This document shows, in pieces, positions 19,329 to 42,939 of a stretch of DNA of 64,000 nucleotides. Each line of letters begins with the position of its first letter. Within the stretch, counting starts at the first letter, position 1. Source of the DNA: Onchidella celtica (taxonomy: Eukaryota > Mollusca > Gastropoda > Systellommatophora > Onchidiidae). Both the position numbers and the translations under genes were made by a program. The stretch covers positions 30,670,413 through 30,734,412 of the forward strand of contig OZ007574.1 of NCBI GenBank assembly GCA_963931925.1. The letters are read 5' to 3'. A model generated the notes under the pieces. It saw only the letters and a program-made list of their open reading frames with translations, did no database searches and had not been told where the DNA came from.

Positions 19329-19548
19329 ATATATCATTTCTTTCGCCAGGCTATTTGCACCACAGTCAACCCTTTCTGTTTGCCACAGTCTGTCTTTCTC
19401 CACTGCCAAGGACAAGATGTGATCAAAAATACATAAAATTGAATGTATATTATAATAAATAATCATTGAGCTGCAGTAACAATGTTATGGGTGTGATACA
19501 TTGCCTTAATGATGCCGAAGTTAAAATGTGACAAAAGGAAAAAAAAGA

Positions 19549-19583
19549 GAGAGAGAGAGAGAAAGGGCGAGAAAGAGAAAAAG

Positions 19584-19660
<77 letters not shown>

Positions 19661-19715
19661 GCGAGAAAGAGAAAAAGACAGAGAGAGAGAGAGAGAAAGG
19701 GCGAGAAAGAGAAAA

Positions 19716-19750
<35 letters not shown>

Positions 19751-19765
19751 GCGAGAAAGAGAAAA

Positions 19766-19800
<35 letters not shown>

Positions 19801-19815
19801 GCGAGAAAGAGAAAA

Positions 19816-19854
<39 letters not shown>

Positions 19855-19869
19855 GCGAGAAAGAGAAAA

Positions 19870-19917
<48 letters not shown>

Positions 19918-19931
19918 CGAGAAAGAGAAAA

Positions 19932-19975
<44 letters not shown>

Positions 19976-19989
19976 CGAGAAAGAGAAAA

Positions 19990-20033
<44 letters not shown>
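19549..20033 (+). repeat. Compound (GA)n array with eight embedded cores
   Basis: Eight copies of gggcgagaaagagaaaaaga (starting near 19565, 19659, 19699, 19749, 19799, 19853, 19915 and 19973) are separated by GA runs of different length. Spacings run from 40 to 94 bp. The ~200-codon frames on both strands come from the repeat. Confidence 0.95.
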
Positions 20034-34643: not shown

Positions 34644-34809
<166 letters not shown>

Positions 34810-35449
34810 GACTATCTATCTGTTTGCCGTCCTGCCTACTAATCGACCTGTCCATCTACATTACTATCCCTGTCCATGTCCTTACAACGATTTTTTTCTG
34901 TCTCATAATTATAACGTCATTCTTGATTACTGCACGGGTTTGAGTGGTTTATTATGAAATTGTTAACGTTTGTTTATAACTTTGAAAATCCTCTGTTCTT
35001 TACCTTCAGTAGCATAAAGTGTAATACAATTCCAAAGCAGAGAAAAGTCTGGTCATAGATAATTCTAATTACAGGACAAACGCTATATTTAAGACTCACA
35101 CACAAATGCAAAAGATAGCCTGGATGCTGCTGCTCTCCATATCTGATTGTAGGGCCAAATACCAGTGAGTTAATAGGAGCTTTCCCTTGCTATTGCCTTG
35201 AGAACCAAGAACCAAGAATTTTCCGTACGAAATCTTTAGCCAGTGATGGCGGGGACAGGGGAAAGTGTTGCAGTCTTTGAAGCAGTTTGCAGTGGCAAAC
35301 ATTGAATGTTTTCTTTATACCTCTTCTCTAACTGTTTGGCGGCATGAAGAGGGTTGTACTGAGGTCGAGCAAACATAATTTAACATAGGAGCGGAAATTA
35401 TGAGGACTAATTTCACATTATAATTGCACACGCATACTCACATGAAGCT
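34810..35449. other. Non-coding stretch
   Basis: Nothing recognised. Confidence 0.4.
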
Positions 35450-35492: not shown

Positions 35493-35754
35493 AACGCAGA
35501 CACTAATTTTCACAACTTGTGGTGTTAAGTTCTCATGGAACAAATAATCTGGTCTAAGCTCTCTCTTAAATTTGGTTATATTATGATCAACAGCGACTAC
35601 AACTATAAAAACAATGGCGCCCAGGACGAAGACGACGACAACAGCATCAACGATAATAACCAATACAACAACAACAACAGACTAAAATAACAAAACCGAC
35701 GGTGACGAACGACAGCAACAAATGAGAACAAGAGTAGCAACATCAGCAGCAAAA

Positions 35755-36079
35755 AGAACAAGAAAAAGAACAAGAACAAGAACAAGAAAAAGAACAAGAA
35801 CAAGAACAAGAACAAGAACAAGAAAAAGAACAAGAACAAGAACAAGAACAAGAAAAAGAACAAGAAAAAGAACAAGAACAAGAACAAGAACAAGAACAAG
35901 AAAAAGAACAAGAACAAGAACAAGAAAAAGAACAAGAACAAGAAAAAGAACAAGAACAAGAACAAGAACAAGAAAAAGAACAAGAACAAGAAAAAGAACA
36001 AGAACAAGAACAAGAACAAGAAAAGGAACAAGAACAAGAACAAGAACAAGAACAAGAACAAGAACAAGAACAAGAACAA
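35755..36079 (+). repeat. Hexanucleotide (AAGAAC)n array
   Basis: About 54 hexamers, with AAGAAA variants placed at irregular intervals. Because the unit is a multiple of three, all frames stay open and give long artefactual proteins on both strands (Arg-Thr-Arg-Lys, Phe-Leu and Val-Leu types). Confidence 0.96.
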
Positions 36080-37483
36080 TAGCAAACAACTACAAAAAGA
36101 ACAAGAACAATAAATATCATGGGGCCTCAAGTGAAAGTCAGACAGTAAGTCGGGAAATAAACCTACGGATACTTCTTAAATGTTATAAACGGGACTTATC
36201 ATCCCGAACTGTAGCAAATTATGATTCGAGTTAAGCTAGGTGGTAGAAAGAGATATACGGTACAGTTTTTGTTATGTATGAAGGAACTTGAAGGCAACAA
36301 CTATGCAATTAGAGCTACTATTACTCAATAGAACAGTAGTTATCTTTTTGACATATGGACAGACAACACAGATTTCAACATCCAGTTAAACCTTTAAGGG
36401 TCTTACCTCCGCACGTTTCATGATGTCATACAATTCATCAAAACGTAGATCCATAGAGTGATTGCAGACACATCCTGGGGCACCTCTTTAAGAAAGTAAC
36501 AAGAACTCGAAAATAACATGTAACAGTTCAGCACTACTTGATCTATATTCCGGGAATGGCACCGAAGGCGTTGACCTACATTCTGACGTGCTATAATCAT
36601 AGACGATCGCGAAACAGTTTCGCTACTTCACAACTCCTTCCTACGGACAGAAACATGCACAACAAGAAAATTTCTGGTTAGAAATGATCGTCTCTATCTG
36701 AGTGAAATGTCCACGCTTAAATCAGAGCCTTCAATCTGTTTTTACTGGAGACGGTAGGCCGGCTTGAGCCCAGCTCCGACGCCATGTTTTTACACTAAAC
36801 ACAGCCAGGGTTAACGCAATAAGGCACCACTTTTTCTTCTCTTTTCCTTTACATTTATGCTGCCAAAAGAGTATGGGCCCCTTTATATATAAAGAAATTC
36901 GTCATTTATGCAAAGTTTACTTGATGCAGTGGTTGAGACGTAGAAAAAAAGGGATACCTCGTAAATAATGGAGCTAGGAAGATAAACATTGTGTGTTTTG
37001 GCTTGGGAACGGTAGGATGATCGCTGGAAAGGTTTTCTGAAGAGTGATGATAGCGTTAGACAGCTAGGCCTGGCTAGGCGATGTGTGGTGTGAAATGGTG
37101 CGTGTTAAGGTTACATGTTAAACTAACCTCCCAACTGATCCGAGCGGACTTCACAACACACTGCCGTACAAATATTGATGTATCCCAAGAGAATACCGTG
37201 AACGAAAATATTATCTCTTGTTCACTCCGAGCTGGGGTTCTTGTTAGTGGTGGCCGGCAAATCAGAAGCCGATATAATGTTCTCAAAGCATCGGCTTGTT
37301 CGGGAGAGAGGTTTAATCCAGGGGTTCCTATACAGGCAAAAATTCATGTATTATTTCCACTCTGGCGTAGCGTTTGTTCATGAACAGATTAGAGAACAAT
37401 TATGTATATAATATTATATATATATATATACACACAAGAATACGCGATGATACACATATCCGTCACCAATGTGACCCTCATTA
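36080..37483. other. Non-coding stretch
   Basis: A (TA)n run lies near 37410-37430. Nothing else recognised. Confidence 0.4.
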
Positions 37484-38551: not shown

Positions 38552-40170
38552 GCAAGAATGCTTCTGAATCGCCTTCTTGATCACCTCTCGTCAAATGACT
38601 TGCTTCCCGAGAGCCAATGTGGCTTTCGTAAAGAGAGGGGAACGGCGGATATGATTTTTGCTGCCAGACAGATTCAGGAAAAATGCATGGAACAAAATAA
38701 AGCGCTGTATATCACATTTGTTGACCTCACAAAAGCATTTGACACAGTGTGTCGTGAAGGCCTCTGGAAAATCTTGGCGAAGTTTGGGTGTCCACCCGAA
38801 TTCATCACAATAGTGCGCCAGTTTCATGATGGCATGCAAGCTGCAGTCAAAAGCAACGGCAGTGTTTCAGAGCCCTTTGCTGTCACAAATGGGGTAAAAC
38901 AGGGTTGTGTCTTAGCCTCAACTCTGTTCAGCATCATGTTCTCTGCAATGCTACAAGAAGCCTTTAGCTCTCCTCCTCAAGGGGTAAGCATCAAGTACCG
39001 AACTGATGGCAGTCTATTCAACCTCAGGAGACTTCAGGCAAAAACCAAAACCAAAAGTACTCAAGTCTGTGACCTACTATTTGCTGATGATTGTGCACTT
39101 CTGGCACACGATGAGGATAGCATGCAAAACTGTGTTGATAAGTTCTCTAGTGCCTGTGACAACTTTGGCCTCACAATAAGCACAAAGAAGACGGAAGTGC
39201 TCCATCAGCCTACTCCAGACGACAAGTATCCTGTGACCCCAAATATCAAAGTCCATGACAGTCTTCTGAAGGTGTCGGAGAACTTCACCTATCTTGGCAG
39301 TACACTGTCTTCCGCGGCTCGTGTTGATACTGAAATTCTCTCAAGAATCAGCAAAGCCAGCTCTGCATTTGGCAGGCTTCGAAAGAGAGTATGGGATGTC
39401 GCCGGCATTCGCATAGACACTAAGCTGAAAGTGTACAATGCTGTGGTCCTTCCCACCCTACTCTATGGGGCTGAAACCTGGACAGTGTACCAATCGCATG
39501 CCAGAAAGCTAAATCACTTTCATCTGGCCTGCCTTAGAAAGATCCTAAGGATCAAATGGCAGGATAAAATTCCAGACAGTGAGGTCCTCAATCGTGCCAA
39601 GGAATTGAGCATCTTCTGCCACCTGAAAAAAATTCAGCTACGTTGGGCAGGACATGTTGTCAGAATGCCCGACTCCAGACTCCCTAAGCAAATCTTCTTC
39701 TCTGAGCTCTCCAATGGAACGAGGAATGTTGGGGCCCCAAAGAGACGTTACAAAGACACTCTCAAGCAATCACTGAAGGCCTTTGCCATTGATGTGAGTG
39801 AGTGGGAAAAGCTCTCGCTTGATCGTGCAAATTGGAGGGCGGCCCTTACCAGAGGCAGCAAAGCATGGGAAGCTGACAGAGTCCAACAGGCTATCAAAAA
39901 AAGAGAACGGCGCAAGAAAAGGCCCAGTGGTACTGAACCAACGGAGCACTCTTGTCATTTATGCGGAAGGGTCTGCAGGGCAAAAATAGGACTTATCAGT
40001 CACATGAGAAGCCATAAGTCATGAAAGAACAGTCTTTCCATTCTGTCCTCTGTGTCCTTTACTTCTCTTTATTGTCCATGTGTTGAAATTCTCAACAATT
40101 TCTGTTCTTTATTCCTCTGGTGTTGTTAAGGTCATCATCATACCTGATGGACGAACTATTATTATTACAC
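38552..40170 (+). mobile_element. 5'-truncated LINE (non-LTR retrotransposon)
   Basis: Homology begins abruptly at about 38552, inside the RT domain and 9 bp after an in-frame TAG. That is the usual 5' truncation of LINE insertions. The ORF ends at 40024. The short 3' UTR ends near catcatcatacctgatggac and a tattattatta tail at about 40155-40168. The endonuclease and N-terminal RT parts are missing. Confidence 0.88.
38558..40024 (+). CDS. LINE reverse transcriptase C-terminal part with zinc finger
   Basis: 488 codons without a stop. In residue numbers from the first ATG: R-K-x-R-G-T-x-D region 24-31, motif A FVDLTKAFD 54-62 (Asp56), motif B NGVKQGC 111-117, motif C FADD 175-178 with both catalytic aspartates, and FTYLGSTLS at 243-251. 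There follow a thumb and C-terminal region including LLYGAETWT and LRWAGHVVRMPDSRLPK, and a basic tail. The finger C466-x2-C469-x12-H482-x3-H486 probably binds nucleic acid. RT and endonuclease together make such elements move by target-primed reverse transcription, but the endonuclease is missing here. The clade is probably RTE-like; I am not certain. The preserved frame suggests a fairly recent insertion. Confidence 0.88.
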   Translation: MLLNRLLDHLSSNDLLPESQCGFRKERGTADMIFAARQIQEKCMEQNKALYITFVDLTKAFDTVCREGLWKILAKFGCPPEFITIVRQFHDGMQAAVKSNGSVSEPFAVTNGVKQGCVLASTLFSIMFSAMLQEAFSSPPQGVSIKYRTDGSLFNLRRLQAKTKTKSTQVCDLLFADDCALLAHDEDSMQNCVDKFSSACDNFGLTISTKKTEVLHQPTPDDKYPVTPNIKVHDSLLKVSENFTYLGSTLSSAARVDTEILSRISKASSAFGRLRKRVWDVAGIRIDTKLKVYNAVVLPTLLYGAETWTVYQSHARKLNHFHLACLRKILRIKWQDKIPDSEVLNRAKELSIFCHLKKIQLRWAGHVVRMPDSRLPKQIFFSELSNGTRNVGAPKRRYKDTLKQSLKAFAIDVSEWEKLSLDRANWRAALTRGSKAWEADRVQQAIKKRERRKKRPSGTEPTEHSCHLCGRVCRAKIGLISHMRSHKS

Positions 40171-40296
40171 TTAGCAATCTAGTATTATTAAATTTGACAC
40201 GGTCGAGTTGTCTGTCTAAATGTTCATACATGATGCCACAAGAGCTTGATTTACACTTCAGACAACAGGCACGATAAGATAGATGGATGGATCATT
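40171..40296. other. LINE-to-minisatellite spacer
   Basis: Short unique sequence between the LINE tail and the array. Confidence 0.4.
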
Positions 40297-40971
40297 GATC
40301 TCAGTGATAATGTTCTAGGTTTTTGTACTAGGAGGCTCCCTGATCTCAGTGATAATGTTCTAGGTTTTTGTACTAGGAGGCTCCCTGATCTCAGTGATAA
40401 TGTTCTAGGTTTTTGTACTAGGAGGCTCCCTGATCTCAGTGATAATGTTCTAGGTTTTTGTACTAGGAGGCTCCCTGATCTCAGTGATAATGTTCTAGGT
40501 TTTTGTACTAGGAGGCTCCCTGATCTCAGTGATAATGTTCTAGGTTTTTGTATTAGGAGGCTCCCTGATCTCAGTGATAATGTTCTAGGTTTTTGTACTA
40601 GGAGGCTCCCTGATCTCAGTGATAATGTTCTAGGTTTTTGTACTAGGAGGCTCCCTGATCTCAGTGATAATGTTCTAGGTTTTTGTACTAGGAGGCTCCC
40701 TGATCTCAGTGATAATGTTCTAGGTTTTTGTACTAGGAGGCTCCCTGATCTCAGTGATAATGTTCTAGGTTTTTGTACTAGGAGGCTCCCTGATCTCAGT
40801 GATAATGTTCTAGGTTTTTGTACTAGGAGGCTCCCTGATCTCATTGATAATGTTCTAGGTTTTTGTACTAGGAGGCTCCCTGATCTCAGTGATAATGTTC
40901 TAGGTTTTTGTACTAGGAGGCTCCCTGATCTCAGTGATAATGTTCTAGGTTTTTGTACTAGGAGGCTCCCT
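40297..40971. repeat. 45-bp minisatellite, 15 copies
   Basis: Fifteen head-to-tail copies of a 45-bp unit that begins gatctcagtgataatgttct on the plus strand. They are nearly identical; one copy has tattagg for tactagg (about 40551) and one has tcattga for tcagtga (about 40842). On the minus strand the unit begins with the last ~27 bp of the adjacent SINE's 3' end and continues into that SINE's target-site duplication. As 45 is divisible by three, both strands stay open (263 and 197 codons); these are not genes. Confidence 0.97.
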
Positions 40972-41301
40972 GATCTTGGAACTTACACCTCACTTTTCTT
41001 GGTTTTTCTTTCCTTGTTAAGTTTTTGTGTGTTTTAGTGGTAACTTTAAAAAAACAAAAAAACTGTTAGGCTTGCTCTTCTCGATTTCTATCTGCCAAAG
41101 TATCTTCAACTTGCGCAACATGCACACGGGTCCTAGGTTTTCGCCCCGTATCCGAGAAGACTAGGTGCTCGATCCCACCTACTATAGGACCAGGGTCAGG
41201 AGTTTTCCACCCAGATTCCAGCATGCCTGCACCGACCGGGATCGAACCGGGTACTTTCGGCAGGAGAGGAGAGCACCTTGCCTCCAGACGAACCTGTCCC
41301 C
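40972..41301 (-). mobile_element. tRNA-derived SINE, tail type A, flanked by its target duplication
   Basis: The head on the minus strand is ggggacaggttcgtctggag, with its B box at 41238-41250. The 3' end carries gtgaggtgtaagttccaaga, then the type-A tail equivalent (tcagggagcctcctag). The 5' flank on the minus strand, agaatgttatcattgagatc, and the sequence after the 3' end, agaacattatcactgagatc, form an ~20-bp target-site duplication with three differences. Confidence 0.9.
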
Positions 41302-42939
41302 CTGATCTCAATGATAACATTCTGTCTCCCACTTATATGTGAACCCCTAATCACGTGGAAGACGTAAAGCAATTATCAAGTCACCAGGAGAGCGAAAATA
41401 TTGATCCGTGTGGATTTTCAACATTAATGAATGAAGTTATTCTAATGCATATTCATCCCCAGTTTCCATCTGACTATTGCTAAATATGCTTTTATTTGCA
41501 TGTTTTGTCATTTTCTGAACATTTTCTCAAATATTTGCTAGTCTATGACAGTAAAAGATTACCAAAAAAAAATAAAAAAATAATGATAATAGTAAAGACA
41601 ATAATAATAATAATATTAATAGTAATAATAATAATAAAAATAATAATAATAACCACATACCCCTCTCTCCCCAGCAATAATTGGTTTTTTAAAGCCAGCT
41701 CTTGCAAAATAATTATAACGAGATCTTGTAACTAAACAATTCTATTTATACTTATCAAGTCAAAATCCCTAATCTCTCTTTCTCTCTCTTTACTCAGTCT
41801 TTTCTCTAAGCCGTCAAATTCATGTTTTCCTATGAAAAAGAGCGCTTCCAAAGTAGGGGTCAACTACCGTAAACCATCCCATAATTTTATTCCCTCCTAC
41901 CGCCCCCCCCCCCTCCCCCATTATTTTTGTCTGTGACATTGTCATTGACACACTCTATAACTTCATTCTTTGCTATGAAAACAATGGCAGAATAGATTCT
42001 GGCAGTACCCTGTGAGTTTAATTATGGTAAATGGAGCATGTTACACATAATTTGATACGATAATATACAACTACTTGACGCACTCATTGATCTCTTCTGA
42101 AATTTGAAAGATTAACATTGAAAAGCATGTGATGTTTTAACATGAAAACCACAGGCTGCATATCCTTTTCTTTGTCTACAGTTTGAAAACTGAGAAGCAG
42201 CATAAGTATAGTTTTTAAAATAAAAATTCGTGGTTTATTATTTTTTTCCTTCTGCGTTAGCAACTATTGTTCTATCATACTCCGATTTTTTCCCCGAATA
42301 GTAGTTCTTTTCCTGACATTAAAAAAAAATAAATTATAATCATACAATCATGGAGTCTCGAAAAATGCACACACAAATGAACCGCTTTACGTTGTTTGCC
42401 ACTCTGCTGAACTAATGTCTGGCCCAGGACGGCTATAATTTTTTTAATACATGTGATAACTCAAATACTTACACATCTGTCCTCTTTAATTTGAATTATA
42501 AATCTTGGACATATATTATCTTAATTGACCGGTATCAATAACTATATAAAGTGTGTATGTATTAGGGAGACACTTTATGTACAAAGGTCCTTTTTTTTTT
42601 TACGTTTGCTTTGAATGCATGAAAATGCAGACGGTGCCTAATTTTCTCCAAAGGATGTCATAATTTCATTTCTTATTCTGACCACTTGTATCCCTCCATT
42701 GTAGATGACACCAGCAAGGGCTTTCTTGTCTCTGCTATATTAGTGTCAACCTTTTAAATGAGATCACTGCTTCCTTTATCTGGTGCAGGAAAATACCGCA
42801 TCATTGTTGAGTATTATAATGCAAGGAGACATCAAGAGACAGACGTCTGCTTTCATTAGAACAAGGCAAAAAACTTGCATGCAGTCGTTCTACAAGATAA
42901 AGATTTTGAACACATTAAATTAAAAAAAGTTTTGAAAAA
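41302..42939. other. Non-coding stretch
   Basis: An (AAT)n microsatellite lies at about 41597-41652 and a C run at 41901-41915. Nothing else recognised. Confidence 0.45.

Follow-up and report, generated by a model that had tools for sequence, protein, structure and literature searches.

How a minisatellite comes into being is the question raised by an array found in the window (the whole stretch of 64,000 nucleotides analysed here, C8:30670413-30734412, from one assembly). A 45-bp tandem repeat of 15 units plus 6 bp occupies positions 40296-40976 on the minus strand, 681 bp at a single locus (TRF: period 45, 15.1 copies, 99% matches), and adjoins an old, full-length SINE, putatively tRNA-type, at its 3' end on the same strand, sharing the last 36 bp of that element. 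TRF and the sequence thereby confirm that a 15-copy, 45-bp array lies next to a SINE, as the original prediction had stated. The units are highly uniform: 13 of the 15 are identical, and units 3 and 10 (numbered from the SINE) each carry one changed base, so that 2 of 675 positions differ. Raw material, direct-repeat pair and product all stand at this one site, and since all the parts are legible there, a model for the birth of a minisatellite can be written out as a prediction for every base.

The answer depends in the first place on where the SINE ends. The element belongs to a genuine repeat family, with 5583 first-look candidates when the window copy served as query and 8561 with another copy, 40 of them being scored each time. 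From the best listed, 39 other copies were fetched, with likeness to the window SINE as the sole criterion; L043, one of their number, is itself located in the window. They share a head near GGGGACACGTTGG and, in most printed rows, a tail near CCAAGAGCAGCGAACCTCCTAAAATAAAGACCTAAAACA, beyond which they diverge, while a minority show a weak tail match or none. Once the duplicate loci L040 and L043 had been removed, the consensus and the target-site tests used 30 of 41 oriented copies; the eleven left out were longer than 450 bp or matched the tail weakly. The resulting consensus, from 29 copies, measures 383 nt and its head starts with GGGGACA; the window copy differs from it by 17.7%.

When the 33-base TCAGGGAGCCTCCTAGTACAAAAACCTAGAACA of the window copy was aligned to the consensus end, it scored 17, whereas the highest of 2000 shuffles reached 12; the final base of the consensus was here set manually to A (the consensus gave C), a choice worth at most 2 points. 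This was the check proposed with the original prediction, and the tails of other SINEs of this type (type A) do resemble the unit. Comparison with the other copies places the 3' end of the window SINE at AACA, plus-strand coordinate 40941; the SINE therefore spans 40941-41301 (361 bp) and takes in 36 bp of the first unit. The interval 40972-41301 given for it earlier was too short, whereas the treatment of the tail as SINE in the accompanying text was right.

The element shows the traits of a SINE, being short, present in many copies, with a common head and tail and with target duplications. The consensus words TGGTCTAGAGG and GGTTCGATTCC would fit A and B boxes. The Rfam tRNA model matched one of the five loci given to it, below threshold (21 vs 29 bits, E 0.82), and ARAGORN found no tRNA in the window.

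The target-site duplication is equally legible. Its 5' copy, TTATCATTGAGATCA on the minus strand, lies at 41303-41317, separated from the SINE head by an extra G at 41302 that is read from the sequence (the consensus head being GGGGACA). The SINE-proximal 3' copy, TTATCACTGAGATCA, follows directly after the tail at 40926-40940, also on the minus strand. Set against each other, TGATCTCAATGATAA from the first position and TGATCTCAGTGATAA from the second, which also recurs in the array, agree at 14 of 15 bases. The pair scored 14 from an 18-bp stretch with one mismatch, the match reaching that far because the array continues with GGG. A score above 7 was reached by 6 of the 30 true pairs (window copy included) and by none of 360 mismatched 5'/3' flank pairs; a score of zero was obtained in 12 of 30, which we read as reflecting the age of those copies. 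The duplication had been put at about 20 bp, and it is in fact 15 bp: the AGAA counted into it belongs to the SINE tail at one copy and to flank at the other, and the estimate was inflated because the AGAACA ahead of the 3' copy, which is SINE tail, resembles the AGAATG ahead of the 5' copy.

Taken together, the tail identity with other copies and the target pair bear out the view that SINE tail and target duplication together make up the unit. In one phase it consists of 36 bp of tail and 9 bp of target DNA, in the other of 30 bp of tail and the whole 15-bp duplication; the "last ~27 bp" of the SINE assigned to it originally thus becomes 30 bp if the word AGATCA is assigned to the target copy, or 36 bp if it is assigned to the tail. 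This word accounts for the length of the unit. The proximal AGATCA (40971-40976, minus strand) lies within the SINE tail and the distal one (40296-40301, minus strand) ends the last target copy, with the flank ATGATCC next to it. In a precursor with a single unit the two words stand 45 bp apart, and duplicating the AGATCA-to-AGATCA interval 14 times from that precursor yields a sequence that departs from the observed 1075-bp stretch at 2 positions. The array measures 15 x 45 + 6 bp, and the 6-bp remainder is what a slippage model predicts. The chance of six or more matching edge bases is about 0.002 under an assumed base composition.

In this regard, the earlier idea is correct in outline, its claim that a short direct repeat sets the unit length being supported, and wrong in the pair that it named. 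That pair was two copies of GATCAGGG, one at the 5' target and one in the tail of the SINE. The word occurs 16 times in 40200-41400, once at the junction of 5' target and SINE (41300-41307), the other 15 occurrences being in the tail and the array. The two named occurrences lie 332 bp apart, and an exchange between them would therefore delete or duplicate 332 bp, the body of the SINE, and yield no 45-bp unit. The AGATCA pair takes their place.

From the SINE end, the target copies, the makeup of the unit, the direct repeats, the order of the parts and the uniformity of the units, all of which are shown, we infer a duplication event, its time and a process of expansion. An old SINE would have inserted on the minus strand, making the 15-bp target duplication. 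Slippage or unequal exchange between the AGATCA of the tail and that of the 3' target copy would later have duplicated the 45-bp interval, and ordinary slippage, exchange or conversion, with homogenisation, would have carried two units to 15. We regard this sequence of events as the best explanation and consider it highly probable.

The tail itself speaks to the timing. Against the consensus, the window tail shows 9 differences in its last 39 positions, and these are present in all 15 units except at one site in unit 10, which has the consensus base (A). Differences common to units that are otherwise near-identical point to a present array that is, on this reading of the bases, much younger than the insertion, or that has been homogenised. 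Unit 10 may owe this base to a back-change, or may have kept it from an earlier state, which would hint at some older diversity. Against the slippage model, the tail AGATCA is absent from the SINE consensus: the window tail word AGATCAGGG differs from the family's AGAGCAGCG at two bases, one of which falls in the 6-bp direct repeat (AGATCA vs AGAGCA). The microhomology would thus either have been in place, or have arisen, in the window copy before the duplication, or have spread into the first unit later.

A different origin for the first duplication is retrotransposition itself, in which reverse transcriptase would have moved from a partly copied tail to the target strand and then returned to the RNA end, so contributing a unit of tail and target. 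This would suit a unit made of tail and target copy that ends exactly at the target copy. It would also suit a SINE copy not picked for arrays (L025), which at 769-819 has two diverged 26-bp copies of tail and flank word ATGTACA; the same word stands 8 bp before the head, with no target pair scored, and this copy is perhaps an array halted at the dimer stage. Nearly all tail differences are, however, shared by the window units, which hardly differ from one another, so that the array would be younger than the insertion unless it was homogenised or the differences came from the source copy. Furthermore, in a sibling array (L106) the word AAGGCAAA stands ahead of the SINE head and again in the unit a few bases past the tail, as a possible target copy, with about 17 bp more of flank behind it in the unit, pointing there to slippage at the DNA level after insertion. 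We therefore judge a duplication during insertion improbable. Membership of the array in a dispersed satellite family is very unlikely: support for it was looked for and none was found, and a 90-bp query for the unit met one candidate locus in 1.14 Gb (43 contigs), in a search that skips very common words. Least credible of all is an array that came first and received the SINE within it, with GATCAGGG as a short target duplication: that word does stand at both SINE boundaries if the element is ended at CCAA, but other copies run beyond CCAA with the sequence that makes up most of the unit, and an array whose unit contains SINE tail cannot predate the SINE; the model was dropped once those copies showed the tail extending to AACA.

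Insertion of the SINE followed by slippage at AGATCA, the reading that we prefer, can be compared with what happened at other copies of the family. A genome pattern search for a first tail motif occurring twice, 8-38 bases apart, gave 66 matches at 4 other loci, and a second tail motif occurring twice gave 45 matches at 5 further loci, with 0 matches for the reversed-pattern control in both cases; a third tail motif, GCAGCGAACCTCCT, gave 0 matches in the same kind of search. Tail-derived arrays therefore recur at copies of the window's SINE family. Nine sibling arrays were fetched whole and a tenth (L114/L115) at its two edges, a list that is a lower bound; with that of the window, eleven tail-built arrays were examined, some of them 5-7 kb long.

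Their units differ widely. According to TRF, the periods and copy numbers are 49 bp x 8.0 (L105), 51 and also 48 bp x 113 over 5.7 kb (L106), 56 and also 52 bp x 133 over 7.3 kb (L107), 21 bp x 6.1 (L108), 60 bp x 4.2 (L109), 73 and also 72 bp x 45 (L110), 18 bp x 38 (L111), 18 bp x 7.6 (L112) and 23 bp x 11.4 (L113); match positions give 58 bp over about 4.8 kb for L114/L115. SINE sequence beyond the unit, in the same orientation, adjoins nine of the ten, with just part of the tail region at L107; at L111, tail-like sequence alone was seen next to the array. By reading, five units clearly include non-SINE DNA (L106, L107, L109, L110, L114), those of L105 and L108 include some 3-4 bp of it, and those of L111, L112 and L113 lie wholly in the tail.

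The edges of the sibling arrays bear on the slippage model in both directions. In its favour, siblings built on the same plan have edge repeats: TAAAAT at L106, the 9-bp GTGTAAATG at L109 and at least AGAAAAGT at L110. Edge repeats of 10 bp and 9 bp also bound L112 and L113, and L114 has an imperfect one. Against it, none was seen at L105 or L107, and L108 has one of 2 bp only. Those of L105, L106, L107, L108 and L110 were read by eye, an exact extension of the unit at the edge not being meaningful where the last units vary.

Other observations were made among these copies. At L108 the target pair GAAGTTCRCCAG stands immediately outside the array. At L105 about 395 bp (464-857) interrupt the SINE between consensus positions 272 and 277. 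In a copy not picked for arrays (L035, 786-1044), a 21-bp repeat at the SINE 3' end, with at least 12 copies at 100%, holds a 12-bp target duplication and extends past the end of the fetched sequence. A further array, of 64 bp, lies at C4:38.92M, besides 264 unlisted matches.

Whether the tail is special within the SINE was approached with two body patterns. A mid-SINE motif, searched twice at the spacing of the first tail motif, gave 11 matches at one locus, a 30-bp array from the SINE middle (G000:C13:22685823-22686168) that is the only body-derived array from these patterns. With a head motif, at the spacing used for the second tail motif, no array was met, just 5 single pairs; at these places (G000: C1, C3, C5, C8 and C10) a second SINE head word stands shortly after the first, as though SINEs were landing in the heads of other SINEs. 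Genome-wide, 4969 occurrences of the middle motif and 2859 of the first tail motif were counted; among the matches listed for the latter, 31 are dispersed and about 69 fall within one array. In the first 38.6 Mb of C1 there are 31 dispersed tail and 78 middle motifs, a ratio that scales to about 1975 dispersed tail motifs in the whole genome. On this basis arrays number 4/1975 for the tail vs 1/4958 for the middle (p 0.025; p 0.06 with 2793 tail matches as denominator), for motifs that were picked after some loci had been seen.

A second count took repeats of period 13 or more, low-entropy repeats excluded, in 38 of the 39 copies (duplicate L040 left out), none of which had been picked for arrays. 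Four were at the tail or 3' junction (one of them, L053, weak), none in the body, four in the 5' flank and one in the 3' flank. Two-sided Fisher tests gave 0.12 for tail vs body and 1.0 for tail vs 5' flank, and an excess of arrays at the junction over ordinary flank is unsupported in these 38 copies. An excess in the tail over the SINE body is suggested, not proven. We offer only as a tentative proposal, somewhat against the odds, that the 3' end of this family acts as a recurrent nursery of private minisatellites, where the same slip-prone tail, meeting a different target at each insertion, would give each array its own unit.

That minisatellites can originate by slippage between short direct repeats is established in the portions of the literature consulted (PMC6947457, PMC3389668), and the window array is a clean new example of that known process; as single-locus biology it is ordinary. 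As in minisatellites of the Haber-Louis type, outlined in the same two sources, a short direct repeat bounds the unit and expansion follows. The characteristic 5-10 bp repeat is present here as the 6-bp AGATCA at both edges, with the difference that the pair links a SINE tail with its own target duplication. Among human repeats derived from transposable elements, 300 of 7276 have flanking direct repeats of 5-20 bp, according to the available part of PMC3389668, which cites Jurka and Gentles for Alu. The human Alu-derived minisatellites (Jurka and Gentles 2006; Ahmed and Liang 2012) are likewise tandem repeats from a SINE, but are presented in the excerpted text of PMC3389668 as hot spots in AluS and as partial-Alu duplications beside full Alus, with no units of tail and target duplication described there.

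In a mollusc, PcH-sat of the limpet Patella caerulea, derived from a Nin-SINE, resembles the window array in that its unit joins a SINE part toward the 3' end with other DNA; it differs, in the same partial account (PMC11121367), as a 179-bp, mainly pericentromeric satellite making up about 10% of the Patella caerulea genome, compared with one 681-bp locus. A review of repeats derived from transposable elements, as far as its consulted text goes, suggests that target duplications joined after cut-and-paste transposition may expand by slippage (PMC9659126). In titles and abstract openings, mostly of non-subscription literature, no minisatellite unit of SINE tail plus target duplication was found, and no priority is claimed. 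Because sibling SINEs carry arrays with differing units, the family provides a natural replicate series for the direct-repeat length needed and for the speed at which units expand.

Some features around the array complete the picture of the locus. No sign of a coding or other function of the array was seen. A long plus-strand ORF runs across it (40246-41037) because 45 is divisible by 3; three Pfam rows were returned for it, none with an individually passing stretch, and were taken as chance. The 3' part of a LINE lies at 38558-40167, with a 488-aa reverse-transcriptase ORF (Pfam RVT_1, E 6.6e-31); the 39 other listed matches to its last part are 99-100% identical, and the family was therefore recently active. 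That this LINE ends at the array edge was considered and rejected, the genome search placing its end near 40167, about 130 bp off: the 39 other listed matches of 39700-40296 all stop at query positions 468-481, that is 40167-40180, which leaves 40168-40295 as flank between the array and the young LINE 3' end. Long simple repeats also occur in the window, namely (AG)n at 19546-20033, (ATCT)n at 34645-34821 and (AAGAAC)n at 35754-36110.
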